A stretch of 64,000 bases of DNA, taken from positions 1 through 64,000 of the forward strand of contig JABIDL010000020.1 of assembly GCA_018651745.1 (NCBI GenBank), read 5' to 3'. Position 1 is the stretch's first letter. Each line of letters opens with the position of its first letter. The translations under genes were made by a program, and so were the position numbers. The stretch is from Candidatus Neomarinimicrobiota bacterium (GTDB taxonomy: Bacteria; Fidelibacterota; Marinisomatia; Marinisomatales; TCS55). The notes under the pieces are model-generated. The model was not told where the DNA came from and made no database searches. It saw nothing but the letters and a program-made list of their open reading frames with translations. Shown piece after piece: positions 60,193 through 64,000 of the stretch.

Positions 60193-60513
60193 TCAGTTGA
60201 ACCAAACTCCCATTCCACCTGCCCTGAGCGCTTTTCCTAGCATGGTTTCAATTTCTTCTGCATCTTTCCGCGTTGGAATAGGATTATATTTTTCGTATAG
60301 ATCTTTCCGGAGTTTGAGCCCAAACCGTTTTGCAAACGTATTAGATTTGTATCCTTCTTTGTGTTGTTCAAATCTTATCTCCGGTTTTCGCGTAGATTGC
60401 CCAACATAAACGCAATTGTTTCCTTTTATATATTTTGGGTTTTTGTTTCTGAATTTTTTTAAATCTGCAACAAGACGGTCAAGTTCAATGACATAAACGT
60501 AATAGCGTTTCAT
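60193..60513 (-). CDS. GIY-YIG-like nuclease domain protein (no tRNA nearby)
   Basis: A 106-residue protein, MKRYYVYVIELDRLVADLKK, then NCVYVGQSTRKPEIRFEQH and the C-terminal GGMGVWFN. The YVYVIEL...CVYVGQS arrangement is a variant GIY-YIG motif with an insertion of about 20 residues; the Arg is in IRFEQH. Unlike the other two GIY-YIG ORFs it has no tRNA fragment nearby and lies 8 bp downstream of a pyridoxamine-phosphate-oxidase-like gene. Confidence 0.72.
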   Translation of the reverse strand: MKRYYVYVIELDRLVADLKKFRNKNPKYIKGNNCVYVGQSTRKPEIRFEQHKEGYKSNTFAKRFGLKLRKDLYEKYNPIPTRKDAEEIETMLGKALRAGGMGVWFN

Positions 60514-61233: not shown

Positions 61234-61239
61234 GTGGGT

Positions 61240-61276
61240 GAGCGAGAGATCCCGACTTAGTCGGGACGACATCCAC
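61240..61276 (-). repeat. Truncated tRNA-Gly 3' copy with TCCCG hairpin
   Basis: On the minus strand the end of the GIY-YIG ORF runs GTGGATGTCG-type text into TCCCGACTAAGTCGGGA and then TCTCTCGCTCA, the tRNA-Gly 3' acceptor strand. Boundaries are accurate to about 1 nt. The ORF's last codons (SGCRPD) and TAA lie inside it. Confidence 0.75.
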
Positions 61277-61517
61277 TTTGCTTAATCAGTTTCTCAGTCA
61301 TTATTCTGCTTTTCCACCCTTTGAATTCCATTTCACGTTTTACAGCTTCACTTTTTGTAGCAAAAGTTTCATCATATTTCAATTCCCACGGAATTCCCAC
61401 TTTTGTAAATGGGTTTATACCGGAGTTATGCCGCTTTAATCTTTTCTTTAAATCTTTGCAATGACCGTAATAATATCGATCCCTGCTATCTGAAAATAAA
61501 ATATAAGCGTAATACAT
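61257..61517 (-). CDS. GIY-YIG nuclease domain protein, tRNA-Gly associated
   Basis: An 86-residue single-domain protein: YYAYILFSDSRDRYYYGHCK, conserved Arg in KKRLKRHNSGINPFT, and ATKSEAVKREMEFKGWKS with the catalytic Glu. The last residues SGCRPD and the stop are encoded by tRNA-Gly-derived sequence, so the ORF fuses into a tRNA fragment at its 3' end, and another fragment lies just upstream. It is clearly distinct from the tRNA-Ser-associated ORF in sequence, yet has the same hairpin context. Confidence 0.8.
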   Translation of the reverse strand: MYYAYILFSDSRDRYYYGHCKDLKKRLKRHNSGINPFTKVGIPWELKYDETFATKSEAVKREMEFKGWKSRIMTEKLIKQSGCRPD

Positions 61518-61524
61518 AAATTTT

Positions 61525-61580
61525 GAGCGAGAGATCCCGACTTAGTCGGGACGACATCCACGTTGGCAACGTGGTGCTCT
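61525..61580 (-). repeat. Partial tRNA-Gly copy with TCCCG hairpin replacing the T arm
   Basis: Read on the minus strand, AGAGCACCACGTTGCCAACG and the anticodon arm of tRNA-Gly are copied up to the variable loop. The T arm is replaced by TCCCGACTAAGTCGGGA (61551-61535), followed by the 3' acceptor strand (CTCTCGC). The 5' acceptor strand is missing. Confidence 0.85.
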
Positions 61581-61594
61581 CCTAATATTATTTG

Positions 61595-61667
61595 AGCGAG
61601 AGACGAGATTCGAACTCGCGACATCCACGTTGGCAACGTGGTGCTCTACCAGCTGAGCTACTCTCGC
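61595..61667 (-). tRNA. tRNA-Gly (GCC)
   Basis: Acceptor GCGAGAG/CTCTCGC, D arm AGCTCAGCTGGTAGAGC, anticodon stem CCACG/CGTGG with loop TTGCCAA (anticodon GCC), T arm GCGAG-TTCGAAT-CTCGT. Discriminator U. Partial copies follow downstream. Confidence 0.94.
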
Positions 61668-61715: not shown

Positions 61716-62162
61716 TCAAACAGGTTTTGGGTAGAATTCCAACAATCTTGAGGGGCGATTCATGACCCATAAACAAAAACCTAATAATATGAAATCTTGA
61801 AAAAGTGTTGAAAAACCTAAAGAACGTCCGGTTTCGGTTACCTTAAAACAACCACAGGAAATATCAATCCCGCGCCCGAGTGCTTGACTTATAGAGACTA
61901 TAAACATAATCAGCATCGCAGTGATGAGTAAATTTGCACCGTCCACCAAAATTCCTGTTATCAGGAGAACTCCGGCAAGTAACTCAACCCACGGTAAAAA
62001 TATTGCCATGGTATTTTCAAGTCCAAAGGGAACCAATTGATAGTTGGCAATGGCACGTGCAAATAAATCAGGATGTGCAATTTTATCTAAACTGGCATAT
62101 ACAAAAAATCCACCTAAAATCCATCTTGCCAGAACCGGTCCATATGTTTTAAGCCGATCCAT
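61716..62162 (-). CDS. MauE/DoxX-like membrane protein
   Basis: A 148-residue protein with four hydrophobic helices. It begins MDRLKTYGPVLARWILGGFF, with LPWVELLAGVLLITGILVDG typical of the DoxX/MauE superfamily, and the segment GIDISCGCFK holds a Cys-Gly-Cys pair. MauE proteins are required for disulfide formation in methylamine dehydrogenase; relatives supply redox equivalents through the membrane. Its start overlaps the rhodanese gene stop (62162). The gene order Sec-lipoprotein, rhodanese, MauE suggests a periplasmic thiol/sulfur relay (inference). Confidence 0.8.
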   Translation of the reverse strand: MDRLKTYGPVLARWILGGFFVYASLDKIAHPDLFARAIANYQLVPFGLENTMAIFLPWVELLAGVLLITGILVDGANLLITAMLIMFIVSISQALGRGIDISCGCFKVTETGRSLGFSTLFQDFILLGFCLWVMNRPSRLLEFYPKPV

Positions 62163-62656
62163 TATTGTGAACTTTCAGTCGGATAACCGGCTTCATCCCA
62201 TGACAGCCAACCTCCCTTAAATACATACAGTTGAGTGAATTCGGAAAGCTGCATATCGTAGGCAAGATCCTCGCTAGATCCACAATCATCATCGCTGCAG
62301 TAAATTACAATCGGTTTTTCTTTTCCCTGAATTGAATCAATTCTAAATAAGAGTTCCATGAAATTATCGCTCACAATGGCCCCCTTAATACGTCCTTCTT
62401 TCCAATATTCTACACCTCGAGCATCTACGAATAGAATTCCTTCATCATGTAAAATTTTGGCTTGGGACAGAGAAATACCGGTCAAAATTGGTTCTTCAAT
62501 ATTTTCTACCTCGAGCAAAATCTCTTTCGTTACAGTCAACTCTTCAGCAATAAAGGGAATTGAATCTGAACGAATTGCATTTGAAATAAACCCCAAAATG
62601 ATGGTAGTGATAACAATTAATAATGACTGGTGTATTGGTGAATGTATTGGAATCAT
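62162..62656 (-). CDS. Membrane-anchored rhodanese-like protein
   Basis: A 164-residue protein starting MIPIHSPIHQSLLIVITTII (N-terminal anchor). The rhodanese domain (about 65-160) has FVDARGVEYWKEGRIKGAI and the active-site Cys in VIYCSDDDCGSS, a loop lacking the usual +1..+6 basic pattern. It is therefore probably a periplasmic sulfur carrier. The frame is open to 62704, but that part overlaps the upstream gene, so ATG 62656 was chosen. It is 8 bp downstream of the selenocysteine-containing gene and coupled to MauE. Confidence 0.82.
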   Translation of the reverse strand: MIPIHSPIHQSLLIVITTIILGFISNAIRSDSIPFIAEELTVTKEILLEVENIEEPILTGISLSQAKILHDEGILFVDARGVEYWKEGRIKGAIVSDNFMELLFRIDSIQGKEKPIVIYCSDDDCGSSEDLAYDMQLSEFTQLYVFKGGWLSWDEAGYPTESSQ

Positions 62657-62664
62657 TGAAGCCT

Positions 62665-63792
62665 TTAGCCTGAAGATTGGTTTTTTTTTGTGAGTTCCGA
62701 ACACGTTTCTAGGATTCCATCAACGATTGTAAGTAATTCTGGGTCACTTTTAATTTTCCTATTTAAATCTACCAAAGCATATTCGGATGTGTTATTTGCA
62801 TTATCAAGTTCAGCTTGTATCAGCTGTTTCTTAACATTGTATTCTGTAATAATACTTAAGACATTCGGCTGACCGGCATATAATTCTTTAAGTGATTTGT
62901 CAGGATCTCGTTTTTGCAGATTTTCCAATCGTCTATTTATGAGACCAAGCTCACCCACTTTTGGAGAAGTATTCACAATGGCTTCATCTCGATTATTAAA
63001 TGATAAGCTAATTTGAGCTATATATTTTCCTTGTATTCCGGTAGAATAAATCATTGGACCGGAGGGCTGATTAACACTTGGCTGTGTTCTCGATCGTGTT
63101 TTACTTAAAAAAATGTAATCCGCTGTGGGAAAGTTTTCTCTTAGTTTAGCTGTAATTTTTCGATCAACATTTGCAAGAATTATCGCAATATCTGCTTTGG
63201 ATTCGACCTCTTTTAAATATCTCTTTCCTGCAGTAAAAACATCATTTATACCAAGATCATCAATATGGGGCGGAAGATGATCAGTCAATCCGATAACTGC
63301 AATTTTGATACCATCACGATCCAAAATAATATATGGCTCAAAGATTAAATTAGCTGTCTCCTTCTCTACAATATTTGCCGAAATAAATGGGATATTACTT
63401 GACTGACCAAGGGTTAGCAAAAAATCTTTCCCATTCGCAAAATCAAATCCACCAACATTAATGCAGTCATATCCAATCCTGTCATATCCATCCATTATGG
63501 TTCGAGCTTTAAGGATATCGGCGTCGCGAGTGTTTCTTGGCAATACATCGGATTTGAAAAATGCATCTCCGGAATCTAATACAAGCAGGGTTTTTCCTGC
63601 TTTCCTGAATTTATTTACCTGTGTTGCGCGTCTGGGCAGACCGCCCAGTGGATTCTTTTTTCAGCCACAGGGATCTAATTGACCGTGCACATTGGCTGTC
63701 ACAAGCATCACTATATTGGCTTCTGGCGATGTTTCGCAAGACCAAACAGCGAGTAGTACAAATATTAGAATTGTATTATTTATGATTTTCAT
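62665..63792 (-). CDS. Metallophosphatase-fold lipoprotein with CGU (selenocysteine)
   Basis: The frame starts ATG at 63792 and, if TGA at 63661-63663 is read as Sec, gives 375 residues with Sec at 44. The N-terminus is MKIINNTILIFVLLAVWSCE, a lipoprotein signal. Then follow TANVHGQLDPCG-U-KKNPLGGLPRRA and LVLDSGDAFFKSD, matching UshA-like 5'-nucleotidase/metallophosphatase proteins that carry DPCGCK at this place. The metal motifs are degenerate: the usual Asp in the first motif is Ala/Asn and the GHxH box is LSKTRSRT. Phosphatase activity is thus doubtful and a redox role through CGU is more likely (inference). Without readthrough only a 292-residue fragment (63543) with TTG start and no signal remains. 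It heads a three-gene operon with rhodanese and MauE-like genes. Confidence 0.86.
63632..63648 (-). promoter_or_regulatory. Bacterial SECIS element of the CGU lipoprotein gene
   Basis: On the minus strand CTGGGC-GGTCT-GCCCAG forms a perfect 6-bp stem with GGUCU loop. The loop starts 19 nt after the TGA, the same spacing and loop as E. coli fdhF. Confidence 0.88.
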
Positions 63793-63835: not shown

Positions 63836-64000
63836 TTAACCGCCGGATGGTTTTGCGATATGTCCTTTTTTGATCAGAATGCTGACAATTTTATCTCTGT
63901 GGTCTCCCTGAATGAGAATTTCCCCATTTTTGACAGATCCGCCAGAGCCACATGATATTTTCAGCTCTTTTCCCAGCGATTTTAAATTAGATTCCGTCCC
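63836..64000 (-). CDS. yciH: Translation initiation factor SUI1/YciH family, C-terminal part
   Basis: The frame is open from the right edge to TAA at 63836-63838 (54 residues seen). It contains [20 protein letters not shown] and [18 protein letters not shown], the conserved C-terminal half of bacterial eIF1/SUI1 proteins (YciH), including the GGxVK...IQGDHR motif. The 5' part is outside the window. It lies upstream of the Sec-containing gene with a 44-bp gap. Confidence 0.88.

Follow-up and report, generated by a model that had tools for sequence, protein, structure and literature searches.

Can the TGA codon inside a lipoprotein gene of a Candidatus Neomarinimicrobiota bacterium be read as selenocysteine (Sec), and what would the resulting protein do together with the rhodanese and MauE genes next to it? 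The gene lies in a stretch of 64,000 nucleotides (contig JABIDL010000020.1, assembly GCA_018651745.1), which is called the window throughout. Translation yields a single frame of 375 codons with U44 as the sole internal TGA, ending with TAA (Table 1). The protein begins with MKII...SCETSP..., carries a lipoprotein-type signal (...LLAVWSC) at its N-terminus and contains the motif DPCGUKKNPLGGLPRR. An alignment of 40 sequences shows no exception to C42, G43 and U/C44 of this motif.

Table 1. Features of the selenoprotein locus, in window coordinates.
Feature	Position	Strand	Remarks
UshA-like (seleno)lipoprotein gene	62665..63792	-	375 aa, Sec = residue 44; translation
Selenocysteine codon, in-frame TGA of the C-G-U motif	63661..63663	-	TGA in 51 aligned loci
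bSECIS hairpin	63632..63648	-	6-bp stem, loop GGUCU; folding and near-invariant GGCGGTCT in relatives
Rhodanese, N-terminal membrane anchor, CX4C active-site loop (CSDDDC)	62162..62656	-	PF00581, 5.6e-11
MauE/DoxX-type membrane protein with CGC motif	61716..62162	-	PF07291, 1.5e-26
SUI1/YciH-like upstream neighbour	63836..64000 (runs past window end)	-	PF01253, 4.6e-13

The bacterial SECIS model asks for an apical loop of 3-9 nt with a G in loop position 1 or 2, located 16-37 nt from the UGA (PMC13188914). The hairpin of the window (CUGGGC-GGUCU-GCCCAG, MFE -11.1 kcal/mol by folding) conforms to this model, its stem starting 12 nt and its loop 18 nt after the UGA; an Rfam search gave no SECIS match for it. 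The energy alone is unremarkable (z -0.2 to -1.6 in folding), and because it did not single out the hairpin we relied on conservation and on synonymous sites instead. The codon of Gly50 is GGC in all 51 TGA-bearing loci and that of Gly51 is GGT in 49 of the 51. Hairpins of the relatives share the near-invariant GGCGGTCT, with loop registers of 5 or 6 nt, and one stem pair (alignment columns 38/50 in the 5-nt-loop register) is found as G-C, A-T, T-A and C-G. Between the window and a congener there are no changes at 10.3 synonymous sites in the 12 codons following the TGA, and further on the synonymous sites are saturated. A dN of 0.17 with a dS of 2.6 after the TGA in the same comparison indicates purifying selection. 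Judged by its conservation, the hairpin is not a chance structure.

In the genome to which the window belongs, each component of the Sec machinery was searched for by its own family, and tRNA-Sec (68.7 bits), selB (355 bits), selA (502 bits) and selD (402 bits) were all identified. The selD gene (G000:C8:10947-11873) has one in-frame TGA as well, so that SelD is probably itself a selenoprotein. The UshA-like protein is present in 166 of 200 relatives searched, mostly with one internal TGA; the clade falls within Candidatus Marinimicrobia/Neomarinimicrobiota. Loci were gathered with a DNA pattern permitting TGA, TGY or TGG at the Sec site; among the pattern matches listed, 112 have TGA, five Cys and none Trp (117 loci re-read). 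One of the 112, a locus from Comamonadaceae, turned out to be a chance match of 32 codons. Cys forms were found at the loci L028, L074, L089, L090, L099, L112, L151, L168 and L188. In the genus g22, which has small genomes, the site is Cys, the hairpin sequence is lost and the codons there are free, and selB was found in none of 14 genomes, whereas it is present in 15 of 16 Sec-form genomes tested. The Cys forms L028 and L112 stand beside the Sec forms L029 and L182, and selB is still present in the genome of the Cys form; L028 has TGC at the site and retains the SECIS hairpin. These represent a very recent change from Sec to Cys. Another relative (L078) has SCPTC instead of CGU; its genome is 99% complete and has no selB.

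Because the genome encodes the Sec machinery and both TGA and hairpin are conserved across Candidatus Marinimicrobia, we read the codon as Sec, and Sec at residue 44 is as certain as sequence allows. The initial annotation had proposed this reading, with a TGA in a frame open on both sides, a lipoprotein signal and a 6-bp hairpin with a GGUCU loop 19 nt downstream. All of these points hold, the 19 nt referring to the first base of the loop. Two checks named there also came out in favour of Sec: selA, selB, selC and selD are all in the genome, and the homologues have TGA or Cys at the site.

The same annotation had stated that no selenoprotein of this family was described, which is wrong. A selenoprotein listed as "COG0737, UshA-like, CxU" was reported in 2008 in the Global Ocean Sampling selenoproteome (Zhang and Gladyshev 2008, PMC2398784), UshA-like CxU selenoproteins also appear in later reviews (PMC9312934, PMC13188914), and the family is curated as NCBIfam NF041198. 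The window protein matches this model of an UshA-like (seleno)protein with 2.9e-64 and 217.5 bits (209.4 in six-frame search), below the cut-off of 275. The match stops at profile position 386 of 519, and the multiheme (cytochrome c554) region is absent. NF041198 also matches each of the 40 proteins in the alignment; the Marinimicrobia proteins end near position 390, and nearly all remain under the cut-off. The window protein scores below it because the model runs on into the heme-binding region. In long family members a cytochrome c554 domain lies C-terminal to the UshA-like domain, as in a member from Calditrichaeota (PF13435; NF041198 score 351.7), and this domain points to electron transfer. 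The window protein is a short, heme-less, lipid-anchored variant of the UshA-like CxU group. Since the curated model includes the heme domain, the short forms do not reach its cut-off, and annotation may treat them as truncated genes.

The AlphaFold model of the window protein has a pLDDT of 92.7 overall, the CGU loop being modelled with less certainty (block mean 62); a Foldseek search matches it to E. coli UshA (1oie, 9.7e-22). The two-metal site of UshA, which we take to consist of Asp41, His43, Asp84, Asn116, His217 and His252, was transferred by local motif alignment and not by superposed coordinates. In this assignment the equivalents of Asp41 and Asn116 are Asp/Asn in none of the 40 sequences, those of His43 and His217 are other residues for the most part, and Asp76, corresponding to Asp84, is kept in 28. 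As far as the alignment tells, the UshA-type ligand positions are lost except for this Asp76. The metallophosphatase fold, the degenerate metal motifs and a redox rather than a phosphatase role had all been suggested earlier, and they are supported here. The genome also encodes a second UshA-like protein (L010:1387-2403). It contains CxC (ENCYCPDHPYG), its histidine motifs are better preserved (LSHQGY, IGSHSQS), and its best match is likewise NF041198 (2.4e-26).

The neighbouring rhodanese scores 43.2 bits against PF00581 (cut-off 22.2) and has its active-site Cys; from the sequence, a start at ATG 62656 is likelier than at GTG 62704 of the ORF list. CX4C is present in 75 of 82 unique rhodanese relatives and CGC in all 78 unique MauE relatives. 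The MauE protein reaches 93.7 bits against PF07291 (cut-off 27) and also matches DoxX (2.6e-8). The SUI1/YciH-like neighbour, of which homologues again lie upstream in some members of the clade, is not thought to be part of the system. Elsewhere in the window a tRNA-Gly(gcc) gene is present in incomplete copies (61239-61280, 61524-61580, 61594-61667), with a 42-nt repeat occurring twice and a 29-nt tRNA piece repeated alongside. They surround a small gene of the GIY-YIG type (61257-61517), and another GIY-YIG gene occupies 60193-60513. The arrangement of tRNA-Gly copies and GIY-YIG gene resembles a small mobile element or homing element at a tRNA.

After removal of duplicates 177 non-redundant loci were counted; they represent a sample in which many loci come from draft metagenome assemblies, and related genomes are not independent events. 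Rhodanese and MauE adjoin the selenoprotein gene in 102 of them (73 downstream, 29 upstream). The remaining loci comprise five with one partner, 35 with sufficient sequence and neither partner, and 35 that could not be judged. In several of the upstream cases rhodanese and MauE are fused to one protein, in which, by hydropathy only, the CGC loop is placed on the same membrane side as the rhodanese domain. The pair was found together elsewhere in seven of 12 examined genomes that lack MauE beside the selenoprotein gene. The partnership is not universal, because in two class-level relatives from another family (L217, L218) the sole MauE is joined to a thioredoxin-like domain (CPHC/CEHC), and in one Sec-form genome (G171) MauE was not found. 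The MauE-thioredoxin fusions have no rhodanese beside them. In four of five genomes of the Cys-form genus g22 MauE is absent, and the single match there lacks CGC. Three Cys forms of this genus (L074, L089, L090) directly follow a small membrane protein, which in L089 matches PepSY_TM (2.9e-7), and neither rhodanese nor MauE was found nearby. In Acidobacteria and other phyla rhodanese-MauE was not seen near the CGU protein. A literature search on the rhodanese-MauE link gave nothing relevant, an earlier mention being possible in Haft and Tolstoy 2025. The partnership of rhodanese and MauE with the UshA-like selenoprotein, repeated across most of the lineage, appears to be undescribed. It ties selenium use to sulfur chemistry in an abundant, largely uncultured marine lineage, and for UshA-like selenoproteins, listed since 2008 without a function, it offers one that can be tested.

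On balance we lean towards the heme-less selenolipoprotein being a periplasmic selenol/thiol oxidoreductase or an acceptor of sulfane sulfur, in exchange with the rhodanese and, by way of it, with MauE and the membrane electron pool. The protein would keep the nucleotidase fold without the two-metal site, and the Cys-Gly-Sec pair in a flexible loop would form the active site. Working in the periplasm in either role, it would exchange electrons or sulfur with the membrane-anchored CX4C rhodanese, and the rhodanese would be coupled to MauE, with CGC facing the periplasm, and from there to the membrane electron pool. A relay carrying electrons or sulfane sulfur between some periplasmic substrate and the membrane is suggested by three vicinal dithiol/selenothiol sites on the periplasmic side, together with a domain for sulfur transfer and a DoxX/MauE-type membrane protein; we infer the redox chemistry, the order of the relay and the quinone coupling. 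In other phyla the hemes fused to the UshA-like domain could do the same job as the membrane partners. More tentatively, and with some doubt, we propose that CGU lipoprotein, CX4C rhodanese and CGC MauE constitute an undescribed membrane-coupled, selenium-dependent sulfane-sulfur oxidoreductase, which would be ancestral to much of Marinimicrobia and whose membrane partners would replace the fused cytochrome domain of other phyla. That the three genes share an operon does not establish that their proteins touch one another. The initial annotation had supposed a rhodanese-MauE operon and a periplasmic selenium/sulfur relay: the operon is borne out by the Pfam matches in Table 1 and the link with both partners is real, while the relay itself is a reasonable hypothesis drawn from the conserved gene set.

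Several other readings have to be weighed against this oxidoreductase. The view that the TGA truly ends translation, arose by sequencing error or has been reassigned, which would leave the upstream piece as a pseudogene, could appeal to the TTG start of the downstream ORF (292 aa), but its probability is negligible: the identical TGA occurs in genomes across the phylum, and seven of 18 long frames of the window end in TGA. A reading as Trp was rejected since homologues carry Cys and never Trp, and a pseudogene since selection acts on either side of the TGA and persists past it. The UshA fold and the retained Asp76 would fit a protein that has remained a nucleotidase or phosphoesterase requiring metal, with Sec as metal ligand or regulatory residue. 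We regard this as highly improbable; the remaining ligands are lost or variable, C-G-U/C is what stays invariant in the family, and the partners are rhodanese and MauE, with none that handles nucleotides.

Two further alternatives accept the partners and assign them another chemistry. In a thiosulfate-oxidation module the protein would act like SoxB on S-sulfonate or thiosulfate on a carrier thiol, and the rhodanese would pass on the sulfane sulfur. The SoxB model TIGR04486 matches with 4.9e-13 (9.2e-26 for the best relative), the family profile finds solved SoxB structures (1.7e-9), and the partners are a rhodanese and a DoxX-like protein. However, the TIGR04486 score of 48.2 bits does not reach the cut-off of 550, SoxB is a di-metal hydrolase whose ligand positions are lost in the window protein, and CGU is no SoxB motif, which makes such a module quite unlikely. 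Also unlikely is a Dsb-like chain of CGU, CX4C and CGC that would serve envelope disulfides or defend against peroxide without transferring sulfur. Three vicinal thiol motifs on one membrane side and the MauE-thioredoxin fusions of some relatives speak for such a chain, and the mycobacterial SodA-DoxX-SseA complex, in the passages of the articles given below, serves thiol homeostasis; yet the rhodanese keeps its catalytic Cys, suggesting sulfur transfer, and the cluster contains no Dsb or Trx protein.

Compared with known systems, the selenolipoprotein shares the UshA-like domain, C-G-U, export and the alternation of Sec and Cys at one site with the UshA-like CxU family (PMC2398784; NF041198 UshA_like_PCGU), whose model spans 519 positions including the C-terminal multiheme region, whereas the Marinimicrobia proteins are shorter. 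With E. coli UshA and the CD73 ecto-5'-nucleotidases it has the N-terminal metallophosphoesterase fold in common, but it lacks the metal ligands and the substrate-binding C-terminal domain and has the CGU loop. Among the sulfur enzymes of the superfamily SoxB thiosulfohydrolase comes closest, sharing sulfur context and periplasmic location; the window protein differs in CGU, the missing di-metal ligands and the other partners. The rhodanese partner is weakly similar to the selenoproteins TsoB (NF045694, 2.5e-5) and rhodanese_LYCAU (NF041203, 4.8e-15), but has Cys only (CX4C) and stays far under both cut-offs. The thiol oxidoreductase SseA is of the rhodanese type. In M. tuberculosis DoxX associates with SseA and SodA in an oxidoreductase complex of the membrane (Nambi et al. 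2015, as cited by PMC6201333 and PMC10501769). As described in these citing passages, the complex is tied to cytosolic mycothiol and superoxide dismutase, and neither a selenoprotein nor an UshA-like part is named. There too a membrane protein of the DoxX type cooperates, in this case with SseA, and the mycobacterial DoxX-SseA complex is the nearest studied analogue.
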